DNA from: Streptomyces sp. NBC_00223 | Lineage (GTDB): Bacteria > Actinomycetota > Actinomycetes > Streptomycetales > Streptomycetaceae | Length of the DNA: 64,000 bases | Direction: 5' to 3' | NCBI RefSeq assembly: GCF_036199905.1 | Contig: NZ_CP108109.1 | Span: forward strand, 3,767,501 to 3,831,500 | Shown here: piece after piece, positions 40,213 through 62,211 of the stretch | How the letters are laid out: the number at the start of each line of letters is the position of its first letter | Numbering within the stretch: the stretch's first letter is position 1 | Translations under genes and position numbers: made by a program | The notes under the pieces: model-generated | Database searches by the model: none | Seen by the model: the letters and a program-made list of their open reading frames with translations, nothing else | What the model was told of the DNA's origin: nothing

Positions 40213-40217
40213 CGCTC

Positions 40218-42115: not shown

Positions 42116-42444
42116 GCTTGCTCCTGTTGGTTCCGCAGGGCCTGCCGCAGCATGGCGGCCACACCCTGTCGGAGGTCGTCGCGCTCCCCGGGCCCGCCGT
42201 GCGACGCCCAGGCGTCCGCGAGGCGGCGCAGATACGGCTCGGCGTCGCCCTCCGGCAGGGTCTCGATGAGCGGTTCGAGGTCGCGTTCCAGCTCTTCGAG
42301 CCAGACCCAGGTCCGGTCGTCGGCCGGGGTCCAGCCGAGCCGGGCCTGGAGGGCGTTCAGATAGCTCCAGAAGTCGACCGACAGCGTCGACGCGTCGGCC
42401 GCGATGTGGAAGTCCTCGTCGAAACGGCGTTCCAGGGCGACCAT
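42112..42444 (-). CDS. Small helical hypothetical protein in the catabolic operon
   Basis: A 110-residue acidic, mostly helical protein with no signal peptide or membrane span, rich in Trp and Leu ('STLSVDFWSYLNALQARLGW', 'RTWVWLEELERDLEPL'). I do not recognise the family. It overlaps the Rieske gene by four bases (ATGA), so a partner or assembly role for the oxygenase is possible. I considered the LigA (small subunit of protocatechuate 4,5-dioxygenase) assignment and found no matching motif. Confidence 0.6.
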   Translation of the reverse strand: MVALERRFDEDFHIAADASTLSVDFWSYLNALQARLGWTPADDRTWVWLEELERDLEPLIETLPEGDAEPYLRRLADAWASHGGPGERDDLRQGVAAMLRQALRNQQEQA

Positions 42445-42475
42445 CTCGCCTCCTTCCTGCGGGGGTCGGGTCCGG

Positions 42476-43564: not shown

Positions 43565-43601
43565 CTGAATGTCTCCTTGCTGAATGGTTGGCGCGCCGCG
43601 G

Positions 43602-46615: not shown

Positions 46616-47790
46616 AGCGGCCACACCATGGTGCGCTGGGGGTCGACCTCGATGACGACCTCGTCGCCCGGCCGGTGCACGACCCGGCGCGGAGCGTCGA
46701 GCAGTACGTTGGAGCCGCCGATGTCGAGGACGTACTCGAAGCTGTCGCCGAGGTAGACCGAGGAGAGCACCCGGGCGGCCACCTGGTTGGGTCCCGTTTC
46801 GCCGGGGCCGCGCGGCTTGATGTCGACGTCCTCGGGGCGCAGATGGACGCCCACCCGGTCGCCGGCGCTCAGCCCGGCCGGCGGCTCCACGCCGACGATC
46901 TGCCCGACCCGCTGTCCGCCCTGGTCGAGTATCACCCGGCGCTGCTCGGCCTCGCCGTCGAGCACGCCCTCGACCACGATGAGCCGGCCGAGGAAGTCCC
47001 GTACGAACGGGGTCTTCGGGCGCTCGTAGAGGTCGGTCGGGCGGCCGATCTGCTCGATCTTCCCCTTGTTCATCACGGCGAGCCGGTCGGCCATGGACAG
47101 CGCCTCGTACTGGTCGTGGGTGACGAAGAGCATCGTGATGCCCAGCTCCTGGTTGAGCCGGCGGATCTCGCGCCGCATCTGGGTGCGCAGCTTGGCGTCC
47201 AGGTTGGACAGCGGTTCGTCGAGCAGCAGCAGGTCGGGGGTGTAGACCAGGGCCCTGGCGAGCGCCACGCGCTGCTGCTGGCCGCCGGAGAGCAGGGTGG
47301 CCGGCCGGTCGGCCATCGCCTCGAGTCCGGTGACCGCGAGGATCTCCTCGACCCGGCGGCGGCGCTCGGCGCGCTTGACCCGGCGCATCCGCAGCGGGAA
47401 GGCGACGTTCTGGGCCACCGTCATGTGCGGCCAGATCGCGTAGGACTGGAAGACCATCGCGATCTCGCGCTTCTCCGACGGCAGGAAGGTGCCCTGCCGC
47501 GCGTCGGCGAGCGTGCGGCCGCGCATCGAGATCGAGCCGCCGTCGATCTTCTCCAGACCGGCGATCATCCGCAGCGACGTGCTCTTTCCGCAGCCGCTGG
47601 GGCCGAGGAGGGCGAAGATCTCGCCCTGCTTCACATCGAGGTCGATGTGGTCGACGGCGATGACGTCGTTGAACTTCCGGGTCATGCCGGTCAGCTGGAG
47701 CTGAACGGCCGGGTCACCGGACGGCTGCTCCACCGGATCTGTGGTCGGGCCCCTGAGGGGGCGGTCCGGCGTGGTCGCCCTCATAGACAT
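46612..47790 (-). CDS. ABC transporter ATP-binding protein
   Basis: A 392-residue importer ATPase of the FbpC/PotA type. Walker A is 'LLGPSGCGKSTSL', signature 'LLSGGQQQRVALARAL', Walker B 'LLLLDEPLSNLD', and the H-loop 'VTHDQYEALSM'. A C-terminal TOBE domain covers about 290-392. AGGAG five bases before the ATG at 47790 sets the start. It forms an importer with the permease and binding protein downstream. It starts 98 bases after the reductase gene, so the transporter may have its own promoter. Confidence 0.94.
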   Translation of the reverse strand: MSMRATTPDRPLRGPTTDPVEQPSGDPAVQLQLTGMTRKFNDVIAVDHIDLDVKQGEIFALLGPSGCGKSTSLRMIAGLEKIDGGSISMRGRTLADARQGTFLPSEKREIAMVFQSYAIWPHMTVAQNVAFPLRMRRVKRAERRRRVEEILAVTGLEAMADRPATLLSGGQQQRVALARALVYTPDLLLLDEPLSNLDAKLRTQMRREIRRLNQELGITMLFVTHDQYEALSMADRLAVMNKGKIEQIGRPTDLYERPKTPFVRDFLGRLIVVEGVLDGEAEQRRVILDQGGQRVGQIVGVEPPAGLSAGDRVGVHLRPEDVDIKPRGPGETGPNQVAARVLSSVYLGDSFEYVLDIGGSNVLLDAPRRVVHRPGDEVVIEVDPQRTMVWPL

Positions 47791-47888
47791 CTGCGCTCCT
47801 CGGATCTGTCCTGGGCGGCTGACCGTCGCCAGGAATCCTTCGTAGAGAAATGGACGCTCTGTAGGTTCTGGTAAGGGGAATTGATGAC

Positions 47889-48866
47889 TCAGAGGTCCAG
47901 TGCGAGCAGCTCCGAGGCCGACCGCCCGACGCAGATCATCATCGTGTCGCCGCGCTTGCGCTCCTCGTCGGAGAGCACGGTGTCGTGGTGCTCGGGGACC
48001 CCGGCGAGCACCCTGGTCTCGCACGATCCGCAGTAGCCCTCCTCGCAGGAGAACCCCACGTCGGGCGCCACGTCCCGGACCACGTCGAGCAGGGTCCGGT
48101 CCGGCGGCACCTCCAGCGTCAGTCCGCTGCGCCGCAGTTCCACGGTGAAGCCGGCCGCCCCCGCCGCCGGTCCCGCCGTGGCCGGCGGTACCCCTGGCGG
48201 CGCGCCGAACCGCTCGACGTGCAGTGCCTGCGGCCGGCCCGCGCACGCCCGGGTGACGGCCGCGACCATGCCCTCGGGACCGCAGCAGTACACGGCGGTA
48301 CGGTCGGGCGCCGCGGCCACCAGGTCGTCGACCGGCAGCAGTCCGTCCTCGTCCTGCGGCGCGAGGTGTGTCCGCCCGGCGCCGAGGTCCGTCAGCTCGG
48401 CGGTGAACGCCATGGTCGCGCGCGAACGTCCGCCGTAGTACAGCTCCCAGGAGGCGCCGGCCGCGGCGACCGCGCGGACCATGGCCAGGATCGGGGTGAC
48501 CCCGATCCCGCCCGCCAGGAAGAGATAGTGGGGGGCGTCCACCAGCGCGAAGTGGTTGCGCGGGCCGCGCACCTGGAGGGTGCGGCCGACCAGCGCCGAG
48601 TCGTGCACCTCGACCGAGCCGCCCCGGCCGCGCTCCTCGCGGAGCACCGCGACGGTGTACGTGTACGGGTCGTCCGGCGGTCCGCACAGCGAGTACTGCC
48701 GTACGGTGCCGCTGGGCAGCTTCAGGTCGATGTGCGCGCCCGGCGACCACGGCGGCAGTTCGCCGCCGTCCGGGTCGGCCAGGGTCAGCGAGACCACGCC
48801 CACGGCCTCCAGCCGGACCTGGCGGACCAGCAGCTGCCGGGTGTCGAAGACGGCCTGTTCTGTCAT
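47889..48866 (-). CDS. PDR/VanB-family oxygenase reductase
   Basis: A 325-residue flavoprotein reductase with three parts: FMN/FAD-binding barrel (about 10-105, 'VRQYSLCGPP'), NAD-binding domain (115-215, 'FLAGGIGVTPILAM' and 'AVYCCGPEGM'), and a C-terminal plant-type 2Fe-2S ferredoxin (240-325, 'CEEGYCGSCETRV'). This is the vanillate/phthalate reductase layout. It is the probable electron donor of the Rieske oxygenase at 40958, seven genes away in the same run. It starts five bases after the neighbouring RraA-like gene's stop. Confidence 0.92.
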   Translation of the reverse strand: MTEQAVFDTRQLLVRQVRLEAVGVVSLTLADPDGGELPPWSPGAHIDLKLPSGTVRQYSLCGPPDDPYTYTVAVLREERGRGGSVEVHDSALVGRTLQVRGPRNHFALVDAPHYLFLAGGIGVTPILAMVRAVAAAGASWELYYGGRSRATMAFTAELTDLGAGRTHLAPQDEDGLLPVDDLVAAAPDRTAVYCCGPEGMVAAVTRACAGRPQALHVERFGAPPGVPPATAGPAAGAAGFTVELRRSGLTLEVPPDRTLLDVVRDVAPDVGFSCEEGYCGSCETRVLAGVPEHHDTVLSDEERKRGDTMMICVGRSASELLALDL

Positions 48867-48871
48867 GACGC

Positions 48872-49549
48872 TCAGTCCGTACCGGCGGGCCGGAAGCCGT
48901 AGATGTCCAGGGTGAGTTCGCCCTCGGCGATCCGGCGCATGTAGCCCGCCTCGGCGGCCTCGCGCGCCCGGCCGGCGGTCAGCACCGCGTCGGCCGACGC
49001 CCAGGGGATCACCACGACGCCGTCCGCGTCGGCCACCACCAGGTCGCCCCGGCGGACCGGTACGGCGCCCAGCGTGATCGGGTCGCCGACGGTCCCGGAG
49101 TCGTCCTTGGCCGTGGTGCGGACCGCGACCGAGGAGCTGAAGACCGGGAAGCCGCGGTCGCGCAGCTGGTCGGTGTCGCGCACCCCGCCGTCGATCACCA
49201 GCCCCAGCACGCCGCGCGCCTGGGCGGCGACGGTGAGCACTTCGCCCCAGTAGCCGCAACTCTCCTGCCGTCCGTCGACCACCAGCACGTCGCCGGGTTC
49301 GGCGAGTTCGAGGGCGAGGTGCAGCGGGAGGTTGTCGGCGGGGCCTGTGGTGACCGGCAGCGCCCGGCCGACGACCACGGCGCCGGACCAGACCGGACGG
49401 ATACGCGGCGGCAGGAAGCAGTTGAGCCCGGACGCCTCGTAGAGCGTCGCCGTGCCCAGCCGCAGACAGGCGGGGGTGTCCAGGCCGTCGAGGCCGGCGG
49501 AGCCCTGAGGGATGCTCGGGCCGGAGGCGGGGGATGCGGCGGTCGTCAT
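48872..49549 (-). CDS. RraA/HMG-aldolase-like protein, copy 1
   Basis: A 225-residue protein of the RraA family, which includes 4-hydroxy-4-methyl-2-oxoglutarate/4-carboxy-4-hydroxy-2-oxoadipate aldolases (LigK). The active-site region is present: 'GDVLVVDGRQESCGYWGE' and the RD motif in 'VIDGGVRDTDQLRDRG'. In an island with LigB- and LigJ-like genes an aldolase role, splitting the pathway end product into pyruvate and oxaloacetate, is more likely than RNase E control. Overlaps copy 2 by four bases. Confidence 0.88.
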   Translation of the reverse strand: MTTAASPASGPSIPQGSAGLDGLDTPACLRLGTATLYEASGLNCFLPPRIRPVWSGAVVVGRALPVTTGPADNLPLHLALELAEPGDVLVVDGRQESCGYWGEVLTVAAQARGVLGLVIDGGVRDTDQLRDRGFPVFSSSVAVRTTAKDDSGTVGDPITLGAVPVRRGDLVVADADGVVVIPWASADAVLTAGRAREAAEAGYMRRIAEGELTLDIYGFRPAGTD

Positions 49550-50223
49550 GCCTGGCTCCTCTGCAGCAGGTGGTAGCCGTGCGCGGCGCGGGCGGCGGCC
49601 AGCGTGCGGCCGGCGAGCACGTCCTCGACGATGCGCGACTCGCGTTCGTGGATGCCCCGGCAGACCTCGGCCAGTTCGTCCTCGACGTCCGGCGGCACGG
49701 CGATCGCGCCGTCGTCGTCGGCGATGATCAGCTGGCCGGGCAGCACCTGGACGCCACCGATCCCCACCGGGCACTGCACATCGCGGACCTCGACCCGGTC
49801 CTTGCCGGTGCGCATGTAGCGGCCGCGGGTGAAGAGCGGGTAGTTGAGGTCGAGCGCCCGCCGTACGTCCCGGCAGACTCCGTCGATCACCGTGCCGGCG
49901 ATCCGCCGGTCGTCGGCCATCGCGGTGAGGATGTCGCCCCACACCGTGCAGTCGGTCCGGCCGGAGTTGTCGAGCACGGCCACCTCGCCGGGCTCGACGT
50001 CGTCCAGGTAGTCGCCGACCGTGCCGGCCGGGTGCCCGGCGGCGACGTAGGAGACGGTGTAGGCGCGGCCGAAGATCGACATCCCGTTGGCGAGCGGGCC
50101 GATGCCGAGCAGACAGCCCTCCCGGCCGAGCCGGTCAAGCGCGTCGGCCACGGTGGCGGTCGAGTAGCCGCGCAGCGGGTGCGCGGGGGCGGCGGGCGCC
50201 TGGGCGGCGCGTTCGTCGGTCAC
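49546..50223 (-). CDS. RraA/HMG-aldolase-like protein, copy 2
   Basis: A 225-residue RraA-family protein with 'VAVLDNSGRTDCTVWGDILT' and the RD motif in 'VIDGVCRDVRRALDL'. It is only moderately similar to copies 1 and 3, so they are old paralogues rather than fresh duplicates. GTG start at 50223 overlaps copy 3's stop (GTGA). It may provide a different aldolase or a decarboxylase activity (oxaloacetate decarboxylation is known in this family). Confidence 0.88.
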   Translation of the reverse strand: MTDERAAQAPAAPAHPLRGYSTATVADALDRLGREGCLLGIGPLANGMSIFGRAYTVSYVAAGHPAGTVGDYLDDVEPGEVAVLDNSGRTDCTVWGDILTAMADDRRIAGTVIDGVCRDVRRALDLNYPLFTRGRYMRTGKDRVEVRDVQCPVGIGGVQVLPGQLIIADDDGAIAVPPDVEDELAEVCRGIHERESRIVEDVLAGRTLAAARAAHGYHLLQRSQA

Positions 50224-50915
50224 GAGCCGGACTCCTCGGTAGCGGGGAACTGACTGTCGTGCATCACTTCGGAGACCGGACGTCCCCGGTCGACGGAGTC
50301 GGCCATGCCGGCCTCGCGCGCCACGATGCGTTCGGCGAAGCCGACGATCCGCGGGGCGTCGGGCCCCGGGACGAAGGCCACTCCGTTGCCGTCGGCGATC
50401 ACGTAGTCGCCCGGCCGTACGGTGACGTCGCCGAACTCCACCGGCTCGTCCATCGCGTGCTGGACCACCCGGCCGCGGGCGCTGATCGGCACCACGGCCC
50501 GGGCGAAGACCGGCAGGCCCAGCTCGCCGCTCTCGGAGGCGTCCCGGCAGGCGCCGTCCACCAGCACTCCGGCGATCCCCCGGGCGACGGCCGCCCGGCT
50601 GAGGATGCCGCCCCAGCAGGACACGTCGAGCCGGCCGTCGTTGGCGATGACCAGTACGTCCTGCGGGCCCGAGGCGTCCACCGCGGCGGCGCCGACATGG
50701 CCGGCCGGCCGGTCGGAGCGGCGCGGGCCCACCTGGACGGTCCGCACCCGGCCGGCCACCACCCGGTCCACCGGCCACACCGGGCGCGGGCCGAGCACGA
50801 CGGTGGACAGGCCGTACGCGTCCAGCGCGTCGGAGACCGCGCAGGAGTCCAGGGCCCGCAGCCGTTCCAGCAGGGGGTCCGTCCCGTCGGGCGCGGATGT
50901 CCCGTCCGTCGTCAT
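50220..50915 (-). CDS. RraA/HMG-aldolase-like protein, copy 3
   Basis: A 231-residue RraA-family protein. The active-site pattern is 'DVLVIANDGRLDVSCWGGIL' and 'VLVDGACRDASESGELG'. It overlaps the LigB-like dioxygenase stop by four bases (ATGA at 50912-50915). Three consecutive members of one small family within a pathway operon is unusual; copy 3 is the one next to the dioxygenase and so the best LigK candidate by position only. Confidence 0.88.
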   Translation of the reverse strand: MTTDGTSAPDGTDPLLERLRALDSCAVSDALDAYGLSTVVLGPRPVWPVDRVVAGRVRTVQVGPRRSDRPAGHVGAAAVDASGPQDVLVIANDGRLDVSCWGGILSRAAVARGIAGVLVDGACRDASESGELGLPVFARAVVPISARGRVVQHAMDEPVEFGDVTVRPGDYVIADGNGVAFVPGPDAPRIVGFAERIVAREAGMADSVDRGRPVSEVMHDSQFPATEESGS

Positions 50916-51952
50916 CGTGTCTCCTCCGGACGGTCGTCCTGCCAGGTCATGAAGGCCATCGCGCAGCCGGTGCCGGCCTCGGCGCGGTAGCAGGGCTCGT
51001 AGCCGACCAGCTCGGCCGAGAGCGGGGAGGAGTGCAGCGCCCCCGCGACCACGATCCAGTTGCGCATCTCCGAGGTGCCCGACCGCAGCACGGCGTCCGG
51101 CAGCGCGCGCAGATGGTCGGCGTCCCGGCCGGCCAGCGCGGTGAGGAAGGCCCGGTCCAGCTCCTCGTCCACCACGAAGTGGCTCAGCCCCCCGGAGGCG
51201 ACGATGCCCACCCGCAGGTGCCCGGGGAAGCTCCTGATCGCCTCGCCGAGCGCGACTCCGAAGTCGAAGCAGCGGGCGGCCGACGGCGGGTTCGGCTCCC
51301 AGAAGGTGTTGACGAAGACCGGTACGGTCGGCGGGATGTGGTCCGCGTCGCCGGCGAGCAGCTGCTCGAAGATGAAGCCCCAGCCGTGCGGAATGCCCGA
51401 GTTACCCCATTCACCGGGCGGCAGGTTCCGGGACGCGGCCGGGTCGAACCCGGCGGCGGAGGTCCGCTCGATCAGATGGCGGGCCAGCGCCGCGTGGCCG
51501 GGCCGTACGGTACTGCGCTCGGGCACATTGGCCACCTCGGCGACGGCAAGACCGGGCTTCATCCGGTCCAGCTGCTCCTGGGTGAAGGGCTCGTGCCGCA
51601 TGGTGTCGCCCCAGTAGAAGGCGAACTGCGGCAGCAGCGCGTCGTCGAAGACCTCCTTGTGGTCACTGCTGACCACGACCAGGACGTCCAGCTCGGCGGC
51701 CACGATCCGGCGGCCCAGCTCCTCGATGTCGGCGCGGCAGGCCGCGTGACGGCGGCGGCGCACCTCCAGTGCGCACTCGTCCGCGAAGCCGGGGGCGCGC
51801 AGCGCGAGCAGGTCGTCGTACGCGTACTCCGTGCCCCGGTAGACCAGCGCCTTGTTGGCGCGGTCGGCCTTGGCCCGCAGTCCCCAGTCCTCCGGCGCGG
51901 TGTTCAGCAGCGGTCCGTGGGAGGTGCCCACGCCCAGTACGAGTTCGGCCAT
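50912..51952 (-). CDS. Class III extradiol ring-cleavage dioxygenase, LigB-like
   Basis: A 346-residue protein of the LigB (protocatechuate 4,5-dioxygenase catalytic subunit)/gallate dioxygenase superfamily. Iron and active-site His residues appear in 'GVGTSHGPLLNT', 'VVVSSDHKEVF' and 'ASGGLSHFVVDEELD'. These enzymes open catecholic rings beside the hydroxyls. No LigA subunit, LigC or LigI is seen; with LigJ- and LigK-like neighbours this fits gallate (or a 3-O-methylgallate) better than protocatechuate, because gallate cleavage gives 4-oxalomesaconate directly. Substrate inferred. Confidence 0.85.
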   Translation of the reverse strand: MAELVLGVGTSHGPLLNTAPEDWGLRAKADRANKALVYRGTEYAYDDLLALRAPGFADECALEVRRRRHAACRADIEELGRRIVAAELDVLVVVSSDHKEVFDDALLPQFAFYWGDTMRHEPFTQEQLDRMKPGLAVAEVANVPERSTVRPGHAALARHLIERTSAAGFDPAASRNLPPGEWGNSGIPHGWGFIFEQLLAGDADHIPPTVPVFVNTFWEPNPPSAARCFDFGVALGEAIRSFPGHLRVGIVASGGLSHFVVDEELDRAFLTALAGRDADHLRALPDAVLRSGTSEMRNWIVVAGALHSSPLSAELVGYEPCYRAEAGTGCAMAFMTWQDDRPEETR

Positions 51953-51958
51953 CGCGGC

Positions 51959-52963
51959 TCAGACCTCCAGCCCGAACAGATCGACGGCGTTCGTCTCGAA
52001 CAGCGCCTTGCGGTCCGCGTCGGTGAGCCAGTCGATGTCCTCGATCAGCAGATGGATGTCGTCGATCCAGCGGCCGGTCTTCGGGTCCTTGACCGATCCG
52101 GTGCCCGGCTTCTCGGTGCCGAACAGACAGCGGTCCACACCGACCGTGCGCAGCAGGAACTCGATCGAGTCCTGGGTGTAGAGGCAGGTGTCGTAGTAGA
52201 GGCGGCGCAGCCGCTCCTCGAAGGTGGTGCCCGCCCGCAGCGCGGCCGGGTAGAAGCGGCCCTTCTGGTACGGGATCGCGCCGCCGCCGTGCGACACGAC
52301 GATCTTCAGGTCGGGGAAGTCGTCGAGCACCGTCGACTGGAGCAGCCCGGCCACCGCCAGGGTCTCCTCCTGCACGAAGTGCAGCGAGTAGCTTTCGCGG
52401 GCCGGCGGACGGCAGGCCGCCGAGTGGATGATGGCCGGTACGTCGAGTTCGCAGAGCGTCTCCCACACCGGGTACCAGAAGCGGTCGCCGATGGCGGGCG
52501 GCTGCCGCAGGCCCTCGTAGGGGTCGGTGTTCAGGGTCGCGCCGACGAAGCCCAGCTCGGTGACGCAGCGGCGCAGTTCCTTGGTCCACAGCGCCGGGTC
52601 CAGCTCCATCGACTGCGGCATACCCGCCACGCCCCGGAAGCGGCTGTCCACCTGACAGCACAGCGCGATGACGTCGTTGGTCTCCGCGGTGAACCACTCG
52701 ACCAGATGGGCCGGGCTCTCGCTGTGCATCATCTGGAACGGCCGGGGCGAGATCAGCTGTACGTCCACGCCCGCCTGGTCCAGGTGCTCCAGGTGGGAGA
52801 TCTTGCCGAAGCTCGGATGCGGCGCGTTCAGCGCCTCCACGACATGTTCTCTGGTCACTCCGGAACGGCCGCGCCCGTGGGCGCCGCGGTGGGACAACAG
52901 GCCCGCTTTGTACGCGTAGAGCTTGTCCGGGGCGGTGACGTGCCCGTGAACGTCGATGTACAT
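51959..52963 (-). CDS. Amidohydrolase family hydratase/decarboxylase, LigJ-like
   Basis: A 334-residue metal-dependent TIM-barrel protein of the amidohydrolase-2 (ACMSD) group. The N-terminal metal site is 'YIDVHGHVTAP' (HxH), with 'AIIHSAACRP' and 'VVSHGGGAIPY' further on and a late Asp/Glu in 'RCLFGTEKPG'. Known members include 4-oxalomesaconate hydratase (LigJ) and 5-carboxyvanillate decarboxylase (LigW). First gene of the second catabolic operon, six bases from the LigB-like gene, which favours a LigJ role. AAGGA-type RBS before the ATG at 52963. Confidence 0.87.
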   Translation of the reverse strand: MYIDVHGHVTAPDKLYAYKAGLLSHRGAHGRGRSGVTREHVVEALNAPHPSFGKISHLEHLDQAGVDVQLISPRPFQMMHSESPAHLVEWFTAETNDVIALCCQVDSRFRGVAGMPQSMELDPALWTKELRRCVTELGFVGATLNTDPYEGLRQPPAIGDRFWYPVWETLCELDVPAIIHSAACRPPARESYSLHFVQEETLAVAGLLQSTVLDDFPDLKIVVSHGGGAIPYQKGRFYPAALRAGTTFEERLRRLYYDTCLYTQDSIEFLLRTVGVDRCLFGTEKPGTGSVKDPKTGRWIDDIHLLIEDIDWLTDADRKALFETNAVDLFGLEV

Positions 52964-53537
52964 GGCGCTGTCCTTCTCATGGTCAGAACGGGCGAGGCCC
53001 GCCGTTGCCCCGGGAAGGGTGCCTGCGGCGTCCTTACCGGGTGTCCTGAACCATAGGCATGGTGCGCCCTATGTGGAATAGTTTCAGGGAGAATTCCTCA
53101 TGGTGGGACAGCTAACTGTCCGTGGCACCTCCCCCGACGTCCCGAGGGCCTGGCGTCCCACCCGGCGTGGACCGTCGGCGCCCGGCGAGGGGCGCTCTGA
53201 CGTGCATATATCGCATCCGCCTGAGAAACATCCTAGATCGAATTTCCCCCAGCGGACTGTGCGCCAAAAAAGTTCACCATAAAAGAACCGGCGCATCCGT
53301 CCCTTTCATCACCGCACTTTCCAGCCACCCCACCCTCCCCCGGGCAGGAGTCGGCCGGGGTGCCCGGTCGCGGGCGGGGCGGGTGGGATCGGAATGGGAC
53401 CGGGTTGGTCACGGACCGCGGGAGGTGTCCGGGCGGCGCTGCTAGAAATTGCTCGGCCCCAATCAGTGCCTGGGTCGGTCCGCGGATCACGGCGGGCGGA
53501 CACAGGCCGGGAGACATCCGTAAAGGAGGTGATCAGG
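52964..53537. promoter_or_regulatory. Divergent control region of the catabolic operon and the peptide locus
   Basis: No gene seen in 574 bases. CATAGG (53052-53057) and CCTATG (53068-53073) form an inverted repeat, and GGAATAGT (53075-53082) is the reverse complement of ACTATTCC in front of the IclR gene; both fit operators for the leftward operon. The stretch 53200-53290 is AT-rich with a run of six A residues, a likely promoter area for the peptide gene. Confidence 0.5.
53522..53534 (+). promoter_or_regulatory. Perfect 13-nt Shine-Dalgarno of the peptide gene
   Basis: AAAGGAGGTGATC is a perfect 13-base complement of the conserved 3' end of 16S rRNA (GATCACCTCCTTT). It ends three bases before the ATG at 53538. 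It is the strongest Shine-Dalgarno seen in the window and implies high-level translation of the short peptide. Confidence 0.9.
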
Positions 53538-53654
53538 ATGAAGAAGATCGCCATTCGGAAGGCCGGTTCGGTCCGTCTGACCAGCACCGCGGCGCTCTAC
53601 GGCGGCGCCCCGTGCGGTCCGACCTGGCCCCCGCTGCCCCCGGTCAACTTCTAG
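53538..53654 (+). CDS. Putative RiPP precursor peptide
   Basis: A 38-residue peptide. The first half is basic and leader-like ('MKKIAIRKAGSVRLTSTAAL'). The last 18 residues are a Gly/Pro-rich core candidate, YGGAPCGPTWPPLPPVNF, with one Cys, one Trp and five Pro. A 13-base perfect Shine-Dalgarno precedes the ATG. The next gene, 155 bases on, encodes a membrane HExxH protease with a PqqD/RRE-like domain, then a TPR protein. Size, composition, strong RBS and neighbours suggest a ribosomally made, proteolytically matured peptide. I know no named RiPP class with this core. No other modifying enzyme is seen. Confidence 0.72.
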   Translation: MKKIAIRKAGSVRLTSTAALYGGAPCGPTWPPLPPVNF

Positions 53655-53809
53655 TCGCGCGGCTCAACCCGGCGGCGGGACACGGGACTTCCCGCCCGCC
53701 GCCGGTCACCGAGGACCCCGGCCCCAGTCGCCGTGTGCGCGCCCCGGCCGTCCGCCCACGCGGGCCGCCCGCCCACCGGCCGCCGCCCGGCCATCCGCTT
53801 GGAGGAGCC

Positions 53810-55096
53810 ATGCCAGACAGGTCGGCGACCGCCGAGCCCGGCGAGGACCGGGCGCAAGGGACGGCGGGAACGCCCGGCGCGCCGCCCGCGTCAGGCACGG
53901 CCGACCAGCCGCTCGCCTTCCACGACCTCGTCTTCCAGCCCGACGGCGACGAGGTGACCGTCGGCAGGCTCGACGCGGGCTCGTTCGTGGTGCTCCCGGC
54001 CGACGGCGCCGCGCTGCTGCGCCGGCTCGTCGAGGGCAGCACATGCGCGGAGGCCGCCCGGTGGTACTCCGCCACCTACGGCGAAACCGTCGACATCGCC
54101 GACTTCGTGGCCGACCTCGGCGAACTCGGCTTCCTGCGGCCGCCCGGCGAGAAGGACGCCGCCCCGCCCCCGCCCGTGCGCTGGCAGCGCCTGGGCCGCG
54201 CGGTGTTCTCCCCGGTCGGCGCGGTGCTCTATCTGCTGCTGATCGCCGGCTGGCTGGTCACGACGGTCCGCTCGCCCGACCTCGCGCCCAGCTACCGGCA
54301 CGTGTTCTTCACCCACTACATGTCCGTCCTGGTGGCGACGATGTTCTTCGCCCAGGCGCCGCTGATCCTGCTGCACGAGGCCGCGCACGCGCTGGCCGGA
54401 CGCCGGCTGGGCCTGCGCTCCAAGCTGTCGGTGGGCCGGCGGCTGTACTACGTGGTCGCGCAGACCACCATGGACGGGCTGGTCGCGGTACCGCGCCGCA
54501 AACGCGTCCTGCCGATCCTGGCCGGCATGCTCACCGACATCGGCGTACTGGCCGCGTTCACCCTGGTCGCCGCCGCCACCCGTACCGCCGACGGCGATTT
54601 CTCGCTGATCGGCGGGGTCGCGCTGGGCCTCGCGTACTCCACCGTGCTGCGGCTGGTGTGGCAGTGCTTCTTCTTCCTGCAGACCGATGTGTACTACCTG
54701 GTCGTCACCGTGCTCGGCTGCCTCGATCTCCAGGCGACCGCCAAGCAGTTGCTGGCCAACCGGTGGTCCCGGCTGTGGGGCCGCCCGGCCCGGCACGACC
54801 CGCGGAACTGGCATCCGCGCGACCGCTCCGCCGCCCGCTGGTACTCCGTGCTGATGGGCGTCGGTTACGCCTTCGCCCTGGCGACGATGGCCGTCAATCT
54901 GCCGCCCATCATCAGCCGTGCCTTCCACACCGTGGTGACGCATCTGTCGGGCGGCCCGGCCCACCAGTGGGCCGGCCTCGCGGACAGCGTCGTCTTCCTG
55001 CTGATGGTCGTCGGCGAACTCGGCCTCGCCGGCGCGCTGTACCTGCGCGAGCGGCGGGCCGGGCGCAGAGCCGCCACCACCTGGTCCCCGTCCTGA
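53810..55096 (+). CDS. M50-like membrane metalloprotease with PqqD/RRE-like N-terminal domain
   Basis: A 428-residue protein. Residues 35-110 look like a PqqD-type RiPP recognition element ('GSFVVLPADGAALLRRLVEG' and a following helix pair), which binds leader peptides. Then come about six membrane spans. The second carries the zinc site His189-Glu-Ala-Ala-His193 ('LILLHEAAHALAG'), and Asp293 in 'FLQTDVYYLVV' fits the third ligand, as in site-2-type peptide zinc metalloproteases. GGAGGAG precedes the ATG at 53810. It most likely recognises and cleaves, or exports, the 38-residue peptide. The protease fold is secure; the RRE call is by pattern only. Confidence 0.82.
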   Translation: MPDRSATAEPGEDRAQGTAGTPGAPPASGTADQPLAFHDLVFQPDGDEVTVGRLDAGSFVVLPADGAALLRRLVEGSTCAEAARWYSATYGETVDIADFVADLGELGFLRPPGEKDAAPPPPVRWQRLGRAVFSPVGAVLYLLLIAGWLVTTVRSPDLAPSYRHVFFTHYMSVLVATMFFAQAPLILLHEAAHALAGRRLGLRSKLSVGRRLYYVVAQTTMDGLVAVPRRKRVLPILAGMLTDIGVLAAFTLVAAATRTADGDFSLIGGVALGLAYSTVLRLVWQCFFFLQTDVYYLVVTVLGCLDLQATAKQLLANRWSRLWGRPARHDPRNWHPRDRSAARWYSVLMGVGYAFALATMAVNLPPIISRAFHTVVTHLSGGPAHQWAGLADSVVFLLMVVGELGLAGALYLRERRAGRRAATTWSPS

Positions 55097-55113
55097 CGTC
55101 CCTGGAGTGCCCG

Positions 55114-57378
55114 ATGTCCGCTGAGCCCGCCCACTCCGCAGCGCCCGCAGAAGCAGCCCCGGCCGGGCCCGTGGAAGCAGCCCCCACCGCCGAACCGACT
55201 TCGCAGGCCGACCAGTTGGCGCCCTCGGACCCCGGCCGCCAGCACCTCCTCGTGGTCGGCGAGCTGCGCCGGGACCGTACGGCCCACCGCGCCGGCCTCG
55301 CGCTTCCGCCGCCGCTGCTGCCGGAGATCTCGGCCCACCGGGGACTGCGCGGACCGTACACGGCCGCGGGCACCCTGCTGCGTGCTCTCGTCCCCGGCGC
55401 GCTCGACCGCCGGCCGGAGCTGGTCACCGCCCACGAGGTGGAACTGCTCACCGTGGCACCGGAGTTGCGCGAGCTGATCCCCGCCAACCTGGAGACGCTG
55501 ACCTCGCTGGCCGTGCCCGAGGAGCGGACCCGTTTCTACTCGCGGTGGCGCACGCTGCGGATCGCGCACGGCCTCCAGGAGTTCCTGCGCGAACTGCTGG
55601 AGTCCGACGGCGCCGGTACACGGTCGCTGGTCGTCGAGGACCTGGACCACGCGGACCCTACCGACACGGAGTTCGTCTCGGTACTCCTGCGCAGGACCGA
55701 CCCGGCGCTGCTGACCGTGGTGGCCGGGGGTACGGCCGCGCTGCTCGTCCCCGCGCCGCCCGACCCCGGAGTGGAGCCGGGCACCCCGGCAGGCGAGAAC
55801 CTGGCCGAGGTGCTGGCCCGGCACTGCCGACGGGCCGACGCGCCGCACATACCGGCGCCCGAGAGCACCGAGAACGCCGAGAGCGTCCACGCGCGGGCCG
55901 CCCGCTATGTCGAGGGTGACGCGACCGACGACGACCCCGCCGCCCTGGCCGCGTACGAGAGCCTCGACGCCGCCGAGCGCCGGGAGTTGCACGACCGGCG
56001 GGCCGACGCGCTCGCGGCCGCCGGCGAACGGTCCCTGGCACTGGGCGCGATCCCGTACCACCGCGAACGCGGGAGCGAGCCGTACCGCACCGGCATCGCG
56101 GCCCTCGCCGTGGCCATGGACACCTGCATGCTGCACGGCTTCTACGAGGCGACCCTCGACCTGTGCCGGCGCGGCCGCGCGCTCACCGACGGCGGGCGCT
56201 TCCCTGACCACTGGTGGTACTTCACCGGCAAGATGCCCACCTCGCTGTCCGCGCTCGGCCGCGCCGACGAGGCCGAGGCGATCTGCGACGAGGCCAGGGC
56301 GCGTTCCACCAAGCCCGCCGTGCACATCCAGTGCGCGTACGCGACCGCGATGCTCTTCACCCGGCACCGCGAGCCCAGCCGCCGCGACCACGACCGGGCG
56401 CTGGCCTGGATCAACGAGGCGATCGCGCTGGCCTCCCTGCTGCCCGACCGCCGGCAGCGCGCCTTCAACACCGTCTTCCACAACAACGGGCTCGCGCTGA
56501 TCGAGGCTCATCTCGGCCACGCCGAGGAGGCGCTGCGGCTCGTCACGGAGGGCATCGCCGAACTCGACCGCGATCTGGGCGCCGACGAGCACCATCTGCA
56601 CCGTTCCGTCCTGCGGCACAACCGGGCCACCGTGCTGATCGGGCTCGGCCGGCCGGCCGAGGCGCTCGACGACCTCCGCGCGGTGATCGACCAGGACCCG
56701 CACTACCCGGAGTACCACTTCGACCTGGGCAATCTGCTGCGCCTGATGGGCCGTGAGCAGGACGCGCTCGCCGCCTACGAGACGGCGCTGCGCCTCGGCC
56801 CGCCCTTCCCCGAGGTGTACTACAACCGCGGCGACCTCAGGAACGACGCCGGGGACGTCGAGGGCGCGCTCGCGGACTTCAGCTATGTGCTGGAGCTGGA
56901 CCCCAGCTTTGTGAACGCGTACGTCAACCGGGCCGGTCTGCTGCTGGACCTCGGCGATCTCGACGCGGCCGAGCGGGACGCGGCGGCCGGCCTCGCCCTG
57001 GCCCCGGAGCACCCGCATCTGCTCGCCGTGCTCGGCCAGGTGCACGCCGAGCGCGACGACGCCGAGGCCGCGCGGGAGGCGTTCGGGAGGGCGCTGCTCG
57101 CCGACCCCGACCTGGTGCCGGCGCTGTGCGGCCGGGCGACGGCGGCGTACGAGGGCGGGGACCTGGACGCCGCCCTGGACGACCTGCGCCGCGCGGTCGA
57201 ACTGACGCCGGACGACCCGGCCGTGCGCTACAACCGCGCCTTCGTGCTGCGGCAGGCCGGCCGCTGGGACGACGCGCTCGCCGACCTCGACATCGCCGCG
57301 GAACTGCTGCCGGACGACACGGACATCACCGAAGCCCGCGAGGAGTGCCTGGCCCGCAGGAGCATGGCGATCGGCTGA
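55114..57378 (+). CDS. Large TPR protein with a degenerate ATPase-like N-terminal region
   Basis: A 754-residue cytoplasmic protein. After an Ala/Pro-rich start (1-40), residues 45-260 resemble the ATPase part of large AAA/LuxR-type regulators: 'RSLVVEDLDHADPTD' (171-185) looks like Walker B, but no Walker A is present, so ATP binding is doubtful. From about 300 to 750 it is a series of tetratricopeptide repeats, for example 'PEVYYNRGDLRNDAGDVEGA' and 'PAVRYNRAFVLRQAGRWDDA'. TPR domains bind peptides and proteins. Eighteen bases downstream of the protease gene; a scaffold or peptide-sensing part of the same system. Confidence 0.8.
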   Translation: MSAEPAHSAAPAEAAPAGPVEAAPTAEPTSQADQLAPSDPGRQHLLVVGELRRDRTAHRAGLALPPPLLPEISAHRGLRGPYTAAGTLLRALVPGALDRRPELVTAHEVELLTVAPELRELIPANLETLTSLAVPEERTRFYSRWRTLRIAHGLQEFLRELLESDGAGTRSLVVEDLDHADPTDTEFVSVLLRRTDPALLTVVAGGTAALLVPAPPDPGVEPGTPAGENLAEVLARHCRRADAPHIPAPESTENAESVHARAARYVEGDATDDDPAALAAYESLDAAERRELHDRRADALAAAGERSLALGAIPYHRERGSEPYRTGIAALAVAMDTCMLHGFYEATLDLCRRGRALTDGGRFPDHWWYFTGKMPTSLSALGRADEAEAICDEARARSTKPAVHIQCAYATAMLFTRHREPSRRDHDRALAWINEAIALASLLPDRRQRAFNTVFHNNGLALIEAHLGHAEEALRLVTEGIAELDRDLGADEHHLHRSVLRHNRATVLIGLGRPAEALDDLRAVIDQDPHYPEYHFDLGNLLRLMGREQDALAAYETALRLGPPFPEVYYNRGDLRNDAGDVEGALADFSYVLELDPSFVNAYVNRAGLLLDLGDLDAAERDAAAGLALAPEHPHLLAVLGQVHAERDDAEAAREAFGRALLADPDLVPALCGRATAAYEGGDLDAALDDLRRAVELTPDDPAVRYNRAFVLRQAGRWDDALADLDIAAELLPDDTDITEAREECLARRSMAIG

Positions 57379-57431
57379 CGGCACCGCCATGGCGCCCGGG
57401 CGCCGCGGAACTACGGCCCGGGCGGGCGCCG

Positions 57432-58136
57432 TTACGGCCTCGGCGGCTGCCACCAGGGTGACCGCGGCGACCAGCGGTCGAACGCCCGGCGGGTGCTGTC
57501 CCGTACGGCGGCGGCCAGTCGCGCGAGGGCGGCGGTGACGGACTCCTCGTCGCCGCCGCCGAAGGTCTCGGGTGGTCGCGGGCCCGGCCGGCGCGCGGCC
57601 GCCGGGCCGTGCCCGTAGCCGTACCCGGCCGCGCCCGTGACGCCGCCCCCGACCCCGCCCGTGACGCCGCCCCCGACCCCGCCGGCATCCGCGTCCCCGC
57701 CCGCGTCCTCGCCCGCGTCCACGTGCGCGGCCAGCAACGCGGTCATCCGCTCCGCGCGTTCGGCCATCGCCTTGCGCCGCAGCGCCCGCAGCGCGCCGGC
57801 GGGCAGGCCGAAACACTGCTCGTACGAGCGGATCAGCGACTCCGAGGGAATCCGCCGTCCTTTTTCGATGGCCGAGAACACACTGTGCGCGCTGTAGCCC
57901 AATCGCTGGGCGAGGGCCCGTAGGGAAAGGCCGTGCTCCAGCCGTAAACGGTGCAGGGTCAGTCCCAGATCCCGCTCGGCGCGGCCGATGTCGGCGGAGG
58001 AGAGCGTGGGCGATGTCGCAGGTCGGACCGGATCGGCCGGCCTGGACGCGGTGCCGGGCGCGCCGCCGCCCGGTGCGCCCGCACGCCCGAACGGGACGCC
58101 GACCCGCCGGCTGTTCTCCGGGCTCCGAAATTCCAT
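57432..58136 (-). CDS. XRE-family transcriptional regulator
   Basis: A 234-residue regulator. A disordered start (1-45) is followed by an XRE helix-turn-helix at 57-118 ('RLEHGLSLRALAQRLGYSAH' and 'SVFSAIEKGRRIPSES'). The C-terminal half holds a Gly/Val repeat (two copies of GGVGGGVTG) and a short helical end. It converges on the TPR gene, so it could be a regulator of the peptide locus, or could act on its divergent neighbour, the large glycosidase. Confidence 0.8.
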   Translation of the reverse strand: MEFRSPENSRRVGVPFGRAGAPGGGAPGTASRPADPVRPATSPTLSSADIGRAERDLGLTLHRLRLEHGLSLRALAQRLGYSAHSVFSAIEKGRRIPSESLIRSYEQCFGLPAGALRALRRKAMAERAERMTALLAAHVDAGEDAGGDADAGGVGGGVTGGVGGGVTGAAGYGYGHGPAAARRPGPRPPETFGGGDEESVTAALARLAAAVRDSTRRAFDRWSPRSPWWQPPRP

Positions 58137-58641
58137 AAGGCCACCGTCTCCTTGTGGTCAGTGCGCGAAATCCGGCCGCCTCGTGCGCAGTGATCCGCCG
58201 CCCGGCCGCGGTGACGGCATCGGTTCGCAAGCATCGTTCCGCACGCAGGTATGCGCATTCCTGGGAAGCGGAACATTCCGTGCCCACGGGAGCGCCCGGT
58301 GGGACCCACGGGACGAGCCGCCCGACACACACAGGTTCTTGCGCAAGAAAGTAGAGATTTGGCAAAGCTGCATCCTGATATTGCGGTGCAGTGTCCGCGA
58401 CATTACGGTGCCCTTGCGCCGTCACCGCCCGCACCACCCCGGGCACCATCCCGCAGTCGCACGCGTCCGCTTGTGATCCCCCGTCCCCCCACCCGTCACG
58501 GAACCCGCACCGCGTCCGGCCGCGCTCACCGAGGGCCCCGGCGCCGGCTCCGCCTCAGCTCCATGCGCCTCCCCCATTCACGCCGCCCAACAGCGGTCGA
58601 ACGGTGCACACACGGCATTCCATGTCGAAAAGGAGCAGACG
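58137..58641. other. Intergenic region upstream of the large glycosidase
   Basis: About 500 bases with no convincing gene. It should hold the divergent promoters of the XRE gene and the glycosidase. GC is lower at 58330-58400. No clear palindrome was found. Confidence 0.4.
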
Positions 58642-61600
58642 TTGTACCAGCCCATCAGATATCTGGGGCGCACGATCGCCCTGGGAGGCACCACCGCGTT
58701 GCTGGCCGCCGCCGGCGTCTTCGCGCTGGCCGTCCCGCAGGCGTCGGCCGCCACCCCCGCCGCCACCGGCGGCAACGGAGCGAGCCTGCCGTACGTCGAG
58801 GTACAGGCGGAGAACTCGGCCACCAACGGCACGGTCATCGGCCCGAGTTACGCCCAGGGCCAGCTGGCCGACGAGGCGTCGTACCGCAAGGCCGTGACCC
58901 TCCAGGGCAGCGGCAAGTACGTCACGTTCACCACACCGGTGGCGACCAACTCGATCGACTTCCGGTACAGCATCCCGGACACCTCGGGCGGATCGGTCTA
59001 CACCGCCCCGCTGTCGCTGTACATCAACGGCACCAAGCAGAGCGACTTCACGCTGACCAACGCCTACAGCTGGTACTACGGCGGCTATCCGTTCACCAAC
59101 TCGCCGGGCAGCAACCCGCATCACTTCTACGACGAGGCGCACCGGCTGCTCCCGCAGTCGTATCCGGCCGGTACGACCTTCAAGCTCCAGGTGGACGCGG
59201 GCGACAACGCGTCGTCGTACACGATCGACTACGCCGACTTCGAGCAGGTGGGCGCCGCGCTGACCGCGCCCGCGGGCTCGGTGTCGGTCACCAGCAAGGG
59301 CGCGGACGCGACCGGTTCGGCCGACTCGACCAGCGCGTTCAACTCCGCGATCAGCGCGGCCGGTCCCGGCGGCACGGTGTGGATTCCGCCGGGCACGTAC
59401 AACATCCCGGGGCACATCGCCGTCAACAACGTGACCGTCGCGGGCGCCGGCATGTGGTACTCGACGGTCACCGGCACCGCGCCCGGCTTCTACGGCAACT
59501 CCGCGCCGTCGCCGAGCAGCAATGTGCATCTGCAGAACTTCGCGATCTTCGGCAACGTCCAGGAGCGCGACGACTCCGCCCAGGTGAACGGCATCGGCGG
59601 CGCGATGAGCAACTCCAGCGTCTCCAGCGTGTGGATCGACCACATGAAGGTCGGCGCCTGGATGGACGGGCCGATGGACAAGCTGACCTTCAGCGGTCTG
59701 CGCATCCGCGACACCACCGCTGACGGCGTCAACTTCCACGGTGGCGTGACCAATTCGACCGTCACCAACAGCGACATCCGCAACACCGGTGACGACGGCA
59801 TCGCGACCTGGGCCGACTCCGCGCTCGGCGCCGACGCCAACGACACGATCTCCGACAACACGGTGACAACGCAGATCCTCGCCAACGGCATCGCGATCTA
59901 CGGCGGCCACGACAACACCGTCAGCGGCAACCTGGTGGTGGACACCGGCCTCGCCCAGGGCGGCGGCATCCACGTCGGGCAGCGCTTCACCTCGACGCCC
60001 GTCGGCACCACCACGGTGTCGAACAACACCCTGATCCGCGACGGCAGCCTCGACCCGAACTGGCAGTTCGGCGTCGGCGCGCTGTGGTTCGACGGCAGCC
60101 AGGGCGCGATCACCGGACCGATCAACGTCAGCAACGCGCTGATCGAGCAGAGCCCGTACGAGGCCGTCCAGTGGGTCGAGGGCACCGTCAGCGGGGTCAA
60201 CCTGAACAACGTGACCATCGCGGGCGCCGGCACCTTCGCCCTCCAGGAACAGACCGGCGGCGCGGCGAAGTTCACCAATGTCACGGCCACCGGCGTGGGC
60301 GCCTCCTCCCCGGTCTACAGCTGCGAGGGCAACAACTTCGCGGTGACCGACGGCGGCGGCAACTCCGGTATCACCGGCACCCCGATCTGCGGCCCGTGGC
60401 CGTCCCCGGTCTTCCCGCCCTACCCGGCCGAGGGCGTCACCGCCAACCCGAGCGCGCTCAACTTCGGTTCGGTCGCCACCGGTTCGACGAGCGCCGCGCA
60501 GACCGTGACGGTCTCCAACCCGACGGGCGCGGCCGCTGCCGTCTCGTCGATCGCCGCCACCGGCGACTTCTCCCAGACCAACACCTGCGGTTCGTCCATC
60601 GCGGCGAACGGCTCGTGCACGGTCAGCGTGAAGTTCGCGCCGACGGCGACCGGCGCCCGTACCGGCACCCTGACCGTCAACGCGGGCGGGAACACCAGCA
60701 CGGTCAGCCTGTCGGGCACCGGCACCGCGCCCGGCCCGGTCCTCAACACCGACCCGGCCAGCCTCTCCTTCGCCGCCACGGTGGTCGGCTCCTCGGCTCC
60801 CGCGCAGACCGTGACGGTGTCCAACTCCGGTACGACCGCGGCGACCGTCTCGGGCGTCACGGCGAGCGGTGACTTCAGCCAGACCAACAACTGCTCCACC
60901 CTCGCGGTGGGTGCCTCCTGCACGGTGACCGTCACGTTCAAGCCCACCACGGGCGGCGCCCGTACCGGGAATCTGACGCTCACCGGCAACGCCAACAACA
61001 GCCCGACGACGGTCACCCTGGCCGGCAGCGGCATCGACAGCAGCACCAACATCGCGGCCGGCCGCCCGGCGTCGGCGAGTTCGAGCAGCGGTACGTATGT
61101 CCCGGCGAACCTCACGGACGCCGACGCCTCGACGTACTGGGAGAGCGCCAACGGCTCCTTCCCGCAGTGGGCGCAGGTCGACCTCGGCCAGAACTACGGC
61201 GTCGGCAAGGTCGTCCTCAAGCTGCCGCCGGCCACGGCGTGGGCGGCGCGCACCCAGACCCTGTCGGTGCTCGGCTCCACGGACGGCTCGAACTTCTCGA
61301 CCCTCGTGGGCTCGGCCGGGTACACCTTCGACCCGAACGCCAACAACAACACGGTGACGATCACCTTCAACTCCGCCACGGCCCGGTACGTCCGGGTCAA
61401 CATCACCGCCAACAACGGCTGGGCGGCGGGGCAGTTGTCGGACTTCGAGGTCTTCCCGAGCGGCGGCGGTGGCGGGACGTCGGCGGCGACGCTGTCGGCC
61501 AACCCCGGTTCGCTGACCTTCGCGAGCCAGGCGCCGGGCACCACCAGCGCGGCGCAGACGGTCACGGTGACCAACACCGGCAACGCGGCCGCGGCGGTCT

Positions 61601-62211
61601 CCGGGGTCTCGGTCTCCGGTGACTTCTCGCAGACCAACACCTGCGGTTCGTCCCTCGCGGCGAACGCGTCCTGCACGGTCAGCGTCAAGTTCGCGCCGAC
61701 CGCGTCGGGCACCCGCACCGGCGGCCTCACCATCAGCAGCAACGCGTCGAACAACCCGACCACGGTCGCGCTGACCGGCACGGGCTCGGGCACGGTGAGC
61801 ACCAACCTCGCCGCGGGCAAGGCCACCAGCGAGTCCAGCCACAACGACGTGTACGCGTCCTCGAACGTCACGGACGGCAACCAGAACAGCTACTGGGAGA
61901 GCGCCAACAACGCTCTGCCGCAGTGGGTGCAGGTGGACCTCGGCTCCGCGCAGAGCGCCGGGCGCGTCGTCCTCCAGCTCCCCGCCACGTGGGGGGCCCG
62001 CAGCGAGACGCTCTCCGTGTCGGGCAGCACGGACGGCAGCAGCTTCACCACGCTCAAGTCGTCGGCGAGCTACACCTTCGACCCGAGCGGCAATAACACG
62101 GTCACCATCACGTTCCCCGCGACCACCCAGCGGTACTTCCGGGTGACCGTCACGGCGAACACGGGCTGGCCGGCCGGCCAGTTCTCCGAGTTCCAGGTCT
62201 GGAACACCTGA
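58642..62211 (+). CDS. Secreted beta-helix glycosidase with accessory domains (GH87-like)
   Basis: An 1189-residue secreted protein with a TTG start (AAAGGAG seven bases upstream). Layout: signal peptide 1-36; N-terminal carbohydrate-binding-like domain 45-195; right-handed beta-helix about 210-600 with Asp-rich turns ('NTGDDGIATWADS', 'GIAIYGGHDNTVSGN') resembling mycodextranase/alpha-1,3-glucanase GH87 and pectate lyases; two choice-of-anchor-D (ASH-like) repeats 612-835; F5/8C discoidin 838-955; a third anchor-D repeat 962-1065; a second F5/8C 1068-1189. It probably digests a fungal or plant polysaccharide such as alpha-1,3-glucan. Exact activity uncertain. Confidence 0.85.
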   Translation: MYQPIRYLGRTIALGGTTALLAAAGVFALAVPQASAATPAATGGNGASLPYVEVQAENSATNGTVIGPSYAQGQLADEASYRKAVTLQGSGKYVTFTTPVATNSIDFRYSIPDTSGGSVYTAPLSLYINGTKQSDFTLTNAYSWYYGGYPFTNSPGSNPHHFYDEAHRLLPQSYPAGTTFKLQVDAGDNASSYTIDYADFEQVGAALTAPAGSVSVTSKGADATGSADSTSAFNSAISAAGPGGTVWIPPGTYNIPGHIAVNNVTVAGAGMWYSTVTGTAPGFYGNSAPSPSSNVHLQNFAIFGNVQERDDSAQVNGIGGAMSNSSVSSVWIDHMKVGAWMDGPMDKLTFSGLRIRDTTADGVNFHGGVTNSTVTNSDIRNTGDDGIATWADSALGADANDTISDNTVTTQILANGIAIYGGHDNTVSGNLVVDTGLAQGGGIHVGQRFTSTPVGTTTVSNNTLIRDGSLDPNWQFGVGALWFDGSQGAITGPINVSNALIEQSPYEAVQWVEGTVSGVNLNNVTIAGAGTFALQEQTGGAAKFTNVTATGVGASSPVYSCEGNNFAVTDGGGNSGITGTPICGPWPSPVFPPYPAEGVTANPSALNFGSVATGSTSAAQTVTVSNPTGAAAAVSSIAATGDFSQTNTCGSSIAANGSCTVSVKFAPTATGARTGTLTVNAGGNTSTVSLSGTGTAPGPVLNTDPASLSFAATVVGSSAPAQTVTVSNSGTTAATVSGVTASGDFSQTNNCSTLAVGASCTVTVTFKPTTGGARTGNLTLTGNANNSPTTVTLAGSGIDSSTNIAAGRPASASSSSGTYVPANLTDADASTYWESANGSFPQWAQVDLGQNYGVGKVVLKLPPATAWAARTQTLSVLGSTDGSNFSTLVGSAGYTFDPNANNNTVTITFNSATARYVRVNITANNGWAAGQLSDFEVFPSGGGGGTSAATLSANPGSLTFASQAPGTTSAAQTVTVTNTGNAAAAVSGVSVSGDFSQTNTCGSSLAANASCTVSVKFAPTASGTRTGGLTISSNASNNPTTVALTGTGSGTVSTNLAAGKATSESSHNDVYASSNVTDGNQNSYWESANNALPQWVQVDLGSAQSAGRVVLQLPATWGARSETLSVSGSTDGSSFTTLKSSASYTFDPSGNNTVTITFPATTQRYFRVTVTANTGWPAGQFSEFQVWNT

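Follow-up and report, generated by a model that had tools for sequence, protein, structure and literature searches.

A stretch of 64,000 nucleotides from Streptomyces sp. NBC_00223 (contig NZ_CP108109.1, positions 3,767,501 to 3,831,500; hereafter the window), the genome of which is a single contig of 7.96 Mb, harbours three consecutive genes for a 38-residue peptide, a membrane-embedded site-2 protease fused to a RiPP recognition element (RRE) and a tetratricopeptide repeat (TPR) protein. This triad, a conserved unit of many soil actinomycetes, is probably the core operon of an undescribed family of small, presumably secreted peptides of the ribosomally synthesised and post-translationally modified (RiPP) type. 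The close order of the three genes on the same strand, as given in a preliminary description of the window, was confirmed (Table 1), and the candidate RiPP-type system proposed there stands as an observation, with its interpretation supported by the analyses below.

The open reading frame (ORF) of the peptide is a real gene. Relatives were considered in two sets, namely 80 named loci, which are the best 80 of 168 relatives, so that counts of 80 out of 80 hold for close members, and 30 loci of the same genus, the window included, eight of which are identical to eight of the named loci. The named set spans Streptomyces, Kitasatospora, Streptosporangium, Lentzea, Actinokineospora, Micromonospora, Nocardia, Kineosporia, Catenulispora and Ktedonobacter (Chloroflexota). 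The search for the 38-residue peptide beside protease-TPR homologues, as suggested in the preliminary description, showed 28 of the 30 same-genus loci to carry it beside the protease, the two loci without it (L023, L024) being remote protease homologues of 31% identity that lack the TPR gene, and likewise 80/80 named loci (74 by the leader motif and six more by relaxed inspection). Family peptides take the form MKKIxxRKxGxVRLTSxA followed by a short variable tail and are encoded 5' of the protease; the leader is near-invariant and the core variable, with conservation figures for the leader that are inflated at motif-defined positions, while the Tyr, the Cys and the Ala at +2 lie outside the motif. 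All 79 occurrences of the strict leader motif in the 1,545,228 bases of the 80 named loci (in 74 loci) are found on the + strand within 1.5 kb 5' of the protease, and the reversed motif does not occur once in the same bases. Equally, substitutions between close peptides (98 pairs) accumulate at the third codon position, with 94/84/385 at positions 1/2/3, and synonymous codon changes dominate with 337 versus 137 others. Upstream of the gene, AAGGAGGTG is common to five aligned regions, two of which (L003 and L033) represent the same locus. Tandem precursors have been found in L084 (Actinorhabdospora), with six clear copies and one divergent copy, and in L093 (Phytomonospora), with seven. In the databases, a profile search retrieved 623 related peptides at E<=1e-3, and those named among the matches listed are termed hypothetical, uncharacterized or, once, lipoprotein.

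As an alternative, the short ORF might serve as a regulatory leader of the protease gene or be a chance frame, without product in either case, as its usual position within a few hundred bases 5' of the protease might suggest. This is scarcely credible against its strong coding signature, its own Shine-Dalgarno sequence, the conservation of its amino acids, the tandem copies with different cores and a distance to the protease that reaches approximately 1.2 kb. This alternative is refuted in the main by the conservation of the peptide family and its coding pattern, and conservation together with the codon-position pattern led to rejection of a chance ORF. No known RNA family was detected at the gathering threshold between 52900 and 58600.

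The signature of the core is a pair of residues. The Pro-rich character put forward in the preliminary description has been rejected as the defining trait, as Pro is common but not universal (57/83 cores). Tyr and Cys each occur after the leader LT in all 83 distinct peptides, counts that are not independent as the family peptides share ancestry. The first Tyr is located at offset 6 after the leader LT in 60 of the 83 peptides and the minimum distance between Cys and Tyr is 5 or less in 79 of the cores. Of the 120 best-ranked among the 623 database peptides, all 120 contain Tyr and 119 contain Cys, the peptide without Cys being P0117. Two arrangements of the core are found repeatedly: Cys-x-x-Tyr, as in CSIYKVPN, and Tyr-x(n)-Cys, as in LYGGAPCGPTW; the window peptide displays the latter. 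Judged from this sequence pattern, the Tyr-Cys pair is likely to be functional or linked.

The protease shows the HExxH motif and the distal Asp of a site-2 (M50) intramembrane protease in an S2P fold. The residue numbers proposed before (His189, His193 and Asp293) proved right, and H189, E190, H193 and D293 do not vary in either of two alignments, of 14 and of 54 relatives. Also the assumed PqqD/RRE-like N-terminal domain was recovered, as an RRE fold at residues 33-113. Thereby, the triad displays two hallmarks of a RiPP system in the broad sense of a genetically encoded leader-core precursor that enzymes mature. These are a short precursor, conserved in its leader and variable in its core, beside maturation genes, and an RRE domain, for which precursor binding would follow from the fold.

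Also for the TPR protein the preliminary description, which assumed a degenerate ATPase-like region, has been upheld. TPR models match 49/49 aligned members, while AAA_16 matches 42/49 at E values up to 1 (best 5.2e-6) and the Walker A pattern was found in 0/79 TPR proteins checked; the N-terminal region is therefore at most a pseudo-ATPase, and the P-loop of an active STAND/AAA ATPase is missing. The predicted model (mean pLDDT 92.5) contains a superhelix that resembles OGT-type and bacterial TPR proteins; the fold matches are filled by the TPR repeats and the fold assignment covers residues 322-754. Along this superhelix, N458, N503, N571 and N707 are each conserved in 49/49 members, N434 in 46/49 and N605 in 42/49. 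OGT holds peptides with an Asn ladder, which these positions resemble.

The TPR protein is firmly tied to the protease. Its gene is located 3' of the protease gene in 80/80 named loci, and 21 of 35 same-genus genomes carry both. Of the remainder, G010 and G025 have a remote protease homologue only and G016 (71% complete) has a TPR protein only. Remote TPR matches of 31-33% identity are located elsewhere in the genomes G023 and G028. Distances between the proteases parallel those between the TPR proteins with a Mantel r of 0.962 (0/5000 permutations; 27 loci, that is, the 30 same-genus loci minus the remote L023 and L024 and the disrupted L026). Among the candidates scored in the databases (the 7994 best), 606 TPR partners were recovered at E<=1e-60; those named among the matches listed are hypothetical, uncharacterized or plain tetratricopeptide repeat proteins.

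From these components a mechanism can be proposed. The basic alternating leader KIxVRKxGxVRLT would dock as a beta strand on the RRE of the protease, as the RRE fold suggests, and docking might set the junction near the conserved Ala-rich stretch into the membrane-embedded zinc site. The leader would then be cleaved off at the zinc site, from which the core may also be released to the outside, in analogy to the proposal for EpeP of epipeptides. Cleavage near the Ala-rich junction is the simplest reading because the RRE is tethered to a zinc protease. The TPR protein, with its probably inactive ATPase-like region and Asn-lined groove, would hold the precursor or core and serve as scaffold or chaperone of the protease, a role suggested by the strict pairing and co-variation of the two proteins. 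The product might be a short peptide of approximately 10-20 residues with a Tyr close to the start and a Cys in the vicinity of this Tyr; in some lineages this peptide may be tailored by a flavin reductase or Old Yellow Enzyme (OYE) encoded next in line; equally, in some lineages a SARP regulator might switch the operon on.

Which of these components are novel can be seen from a comparison with known systems. Precursors are substrates of S2P-clan proteases in epipeptides, pearlins and TMcin. In daptides, the protease DapP likewise carries an RRE at the N-terminus of an intramembrane site-2 protease, and a short precursor with a conserved N-terminal motif is equally found in Actinomycetota (PMC10036551). 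On the other hand, the oxidative decarboxylase, aminotransferase, methyltransferase and DUF-RRE of daptides were not found beside the window operon, the ELExMEAP motif of daptide precursors is absent from an alignment of 41 precursors, which display the KIxVRKxGxVRLT leader instead, and a TPR partner is present. The M50 protease EpeP of epipeptides has been proposed to cleave and export, with deletion of epeP leaving some product (PMC10885120). A membrane protease of the M50 type is shared with the triad, whereas a radical SAM epimerase was not found in the window neighbourhood, and the TPR partner and the core Tyr and Cys set the triad apart. TmcP of TMcin is an S2P-clan HExxH protease that removes the leader in the membrane and as such a precedent for the cleavage proposed here, but belongs to PF11667 and acts on a precursor with a transmembrane helix and a disulfide, and its description mentions neither 'RRE' nor 'TPR' (PMC13252029). 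Furthermore, the TPR proteins named by NCBIfam for the FxSxx-COOH and HaaT systems resemble the situation here in that a TPR protein is assigned to a RiPP system; P0002 matched the FxSxx_TPR model with E 0.0018 over 200 residues, at 16.8 of 300 bits far under the curated cut-off. FxSxx-COOH and HaaT systems have radical SAM enzymes, a difference from the triad.

A divergent member of a known RRE-M50 RiPP class, be it daptide, epipeptide or pearlin, is accordingly a very unlikely explanation. The NCBIfam YydH/LiaK model matches 3/54 members of the protease family (best 4.7e-4) and the daptide protease model 1/54 (0.03), but protease P0004 is matched by neither at E<=1, and the precursors lack ELExMEAP. 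As anticipated in the preliminary description for radical SAM and LanB-like genes, neither these nor a decarboxylase, aminotransferase or methyltransferase, nor PEARL, the small LanB-like ligase of pearlins, was found among the annotated window genes around the triad (50223-62208). In relatives, where 100 of 196 near-neighbour genes were scanned and the 25 commonest families listed, neither PEARL ligase nor YcaO, LanB/C or P450 appeared among these families, and a methyltransferase was recorded in two genes. The CxxxCxxC motif is present in 3 of 697 genes of 200-700 aa across the 80 loci, two of these being PqqE-like by eye; such PqqE-like radical SAM genes with CPLHCxxC lie at 2519-3658 in L044 and at 5565-6674 in L074, within 10 kb of the operon. 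That no RiPP class could be named for the triad thus holds for daptides, epipeptides and pearlins. No model in Pfam or NCBIfam matches the combination, and no description of a triad that joins this leader family to a constant TPR partner was found in the literature on RiPPs, RREs and M50 proteases, mostly at the level of titles and abstracts. Within the reach of these sources, the RRE-M50 fusion is the known part, from daptides, and the leader family with its fixed TPR partner the new part. The triad is thus probably a RiPP-type maturation system, with a real chance of being its own class. A more specific conjecture, namely a new RiPP class built on an RRE-site-2 protease with a pseudo-ATPase TPR protein as its obligate partner, in which the Tyr-Cys pair of all products would be joined or matured without a dedicated modification enzyme by the TPR protein and the protease, with an optional flavoenzyme, is tentative and rather doubtful.

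Remote relatives place the triad in a wider context. Protease homologues of 29-35% identity (L128-L141, L176, L177, L023, L024) are found without TPR protein, and in L137 and L141 an E1/ThiF-like gene just 5' of the protease takes the place of the TPR protein; its product appears from reading of the sequence to have an RRE-like N-terminus. What these relatives share with the window system is the homologous protease and tiny basic precursors such as MKKLIVRRLESVKTSAATSCSVVVA. The triad therefore looks like one branch of a wider RRE-M50 peptide group. Sister loci L128, L130, L132, L136 and L177 encode tiny peptides such as MKKLIVRRLESVKTSAATSCSVVVA, MADVIVIRKLDKKETTSSSNQSSA (and a near copy) and MKIEVKKVEKVQATIYMPPPKL, and the TPR-less sister loci are possibly another undescribed peptide system. 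In L175, a distant locus of the same phylum, the protease is 29% and the TPR protein 25% identical to those of the window and the peptide MHTTQAKSTPMKMKKFAIRDVETVKTTAAALYIPFFCGGGGWPF keeps Tyr and Cys; this locus may link the branches with and without TPR protein.

The distribution of the system is patchy across genus, order and phylum. The closest named relatives of the window protease, from Streptacidiphilus and Streptomyces, are approximately 60% identical. A protease homologue is present in 23/35 same-genus genomes, with up to five copies per genome, in 39/293 same-order genomes, remote forms counted, and in 4/396 phylum-wide genomes. Two Ktedonobacter loci (L096, L099) contain the same triad with MKKIVVRKTQAVKLTSGSTPLYGMCIY-type peptides, which suggests transfer from actinomycetes. 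In L026, L127 and L146 the protease or TPR gene contains an in-frame stop, and these are possible decaying copies.

Regulation has been addressed through neighbour genes, with SARP, flavin reductase and OYE groups defined as BLAST clusters of gene calls made for this analysis; Pfam matches were obtained for all nine SARP-cluster genes and the flavin reductases within the scanned part of the neighbours. A SARP-family gene is located within 4 kb in 44/80 named loci. Direct repeats with an 11-bp spacing are the operator pattern of SARPs, and period-11 triple repeats 5' of the peptide gene reached p<=0.05 in 30/43 SARP loci versus 6/34 others (77 of the 80 loci, three with the peptide near a contig end or unmatched having been dropped; p values are per locus and uncorrected, and ten SARP loci are related Lentzea). 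In many SARP loci the peptide gene is preceded by three direct repeats of the TTGGAG or CTGGCG type; several of the significant repeats differ from the TTGG type. Of the six repeat loci without SARP, L063 and L103 carry TTTGG repeats; the contig of L063 extends less than 1 kb past the TPR gene and L103 has a SARP-linked gene approximately 5 kb away. In the ten Lentzea loci (L054, L062, L068, L077, L082, L086, L088, L089, L095, L097) the precursor promoter is strongly conserved with three TTGGAG-type repeats at 11-bp spacing, likely a SARP operator. Directly past the TPR gene follows a flavin reductase in 24/80 loci (same strand in 23, opposite strand in L040), or an OYE in 5/80, and these flavoenzymes in 29/80 loci suggest optional redox tailoring. 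In the window, the convergent HTH_31 regulator, which the five nearest distinct loci retain (L032, L033 = L178, L179, L180 and L181) but of which neither L182 nor the other 78 named loci showed a copy, likely belongs to the system.

Regulators adjoining the operon would equally be expected from a quorum-sensing system, in which an Eep-like protease frees a peptide pheromone and the TPR protein reads the imported peptide and acts on the SARP or XRE regulator. In RRNPP systems, TPR receptors sense peptides, and M50 proteases process pheromones. The weak ATPase-like region of the TPR protein, as in sensor proteins, and cores that are nearly identical among the loci of one protease clade point in the same direction. 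On the other hand, RRE-bearing proteases are a typical feature of RiPP systems, the arrays in L084 and L093 hold six or seven differing cores, no DNA-binding family is among those listed for the TPR protein, and the ABC importer of the window (44741-48750) is of the solute-importing TOBE_2 type and sits in a catabolic gene cluster. A pheromone system is therefore regarded as unlikely, and the favoured role of the TPR protein is that of a scaffold which holds the precursor, with a receptor role as the main rival.

Several observations weigh against a RiPP-type operon. No universal modifying enzyme was found among the loci; the product may therefore be cleaved but otherwise unmodified, in which case it would not strictly be a RiPP. 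The TPR protein is similar to partners that sense signals, and a signalling system would fit this as well. An exporter with a fixed position is missing in the 80 named loci, where ABC ATPase genes occur within 10 kb in 12, at scattered positions, and no immunity gene was recognised. The window locus itself is without nearby SARP or flavin reductase, and its promoter repeats are not significant (p 0.20). Finally, L121 and L122 have protease and TPR protein with no peptide by the filters used; L125 and L126, first scored as peptide-less as well, have the peptide after a second look.

Table 1. Features of the triad and its convergent regulator in the window
Feature	Position	Strand	Basis or remark
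Shine-Dalgarno AAAGGAGGTGATC of the peptide gene	53522..53534	+	read directly
Peptide ORF, 38 aa	53538..53654	+	long Shine-Dalgarno 5' of start
Leader half of precursor, MKKIAIRKAGSVRLTSTA	53538..53591	+	leader/core boundary inferred
Core half ALYGGAPCGPTWPPLPPVNF (Tyr21, Cys26) and stop codon	53592..53654	+	Tyr, Cys in 83/83 distinct family cores
RRE-fused site-2 (M50-type) membrane protease, 428 aa	53810..55096	+	
RRE/PqqD-like domain of protease, residues 33-113	53906..54148	+	
Site-2 protease core, residues 169-369	54314..54916	+	HEAAH 54374-54388, Asp293 54686-54688
TPR protein, 754 aa, protease partner	55114..57378	+	
N-terminal ATPase-like region of TPR protein, residues ~44-300	55243..56013	+	weak AAA_16 match; without Walker A
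TPR superhelix, residues 322-754, conserved Asn ladder	56077..57375	+	predicted model, fold matches, column counts
Convergent HTH_31 (XRE-type) regulator, clade-specific neighbour	57432..58136	-	HTH_31 E 7e-11

The surroundings of the triad are of a different nature. At 36432-52963, 5' of the triad, lies an aromatic-ring catabolic gene cluster with a FAD monooxygenase-like protein, an IclR regulator, an EutA-like protein, a class II aldolase, a cupin protein, a Rieske oxygenase with LigXa-like C-terminus, a ferredoxin-type reductase, two RraA-like proteins, a LigB dioxygenase, an amidohydrolase and the above ABC importer (BPD_transp_1, ABC_tran with TOBE_2). The LigB, amidohydrolase and RraA genes are unsupported as parts of the system, with the amidohydrolase unmatched in the seven nearest-relative loci searched. 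The region 58642-62211 encodes a large protein resembling alpha-1,3-glucanases, in which F5/8 type C domains are present along with matches to Ig domains of the ASH/HYDIN type. A defence system was rejected in the absence of a meaningful PADLOC match, and plasmid mobility upon a single remote match (41%) in 72,556 plasmid records.

Hundreds of distinct precursors and TPR partners reside in the databases, without functional names among those listed. The system offers a testable logic of RRE docking, membrane cleavage and a near-universal Tyr-Cys signature of the product, and this logic and signature, together with the antibiotic-type SARP neighbours, point to an unexplored group of actinomycete peptides, which would probably escape tools that rely on known modifying enzymes.

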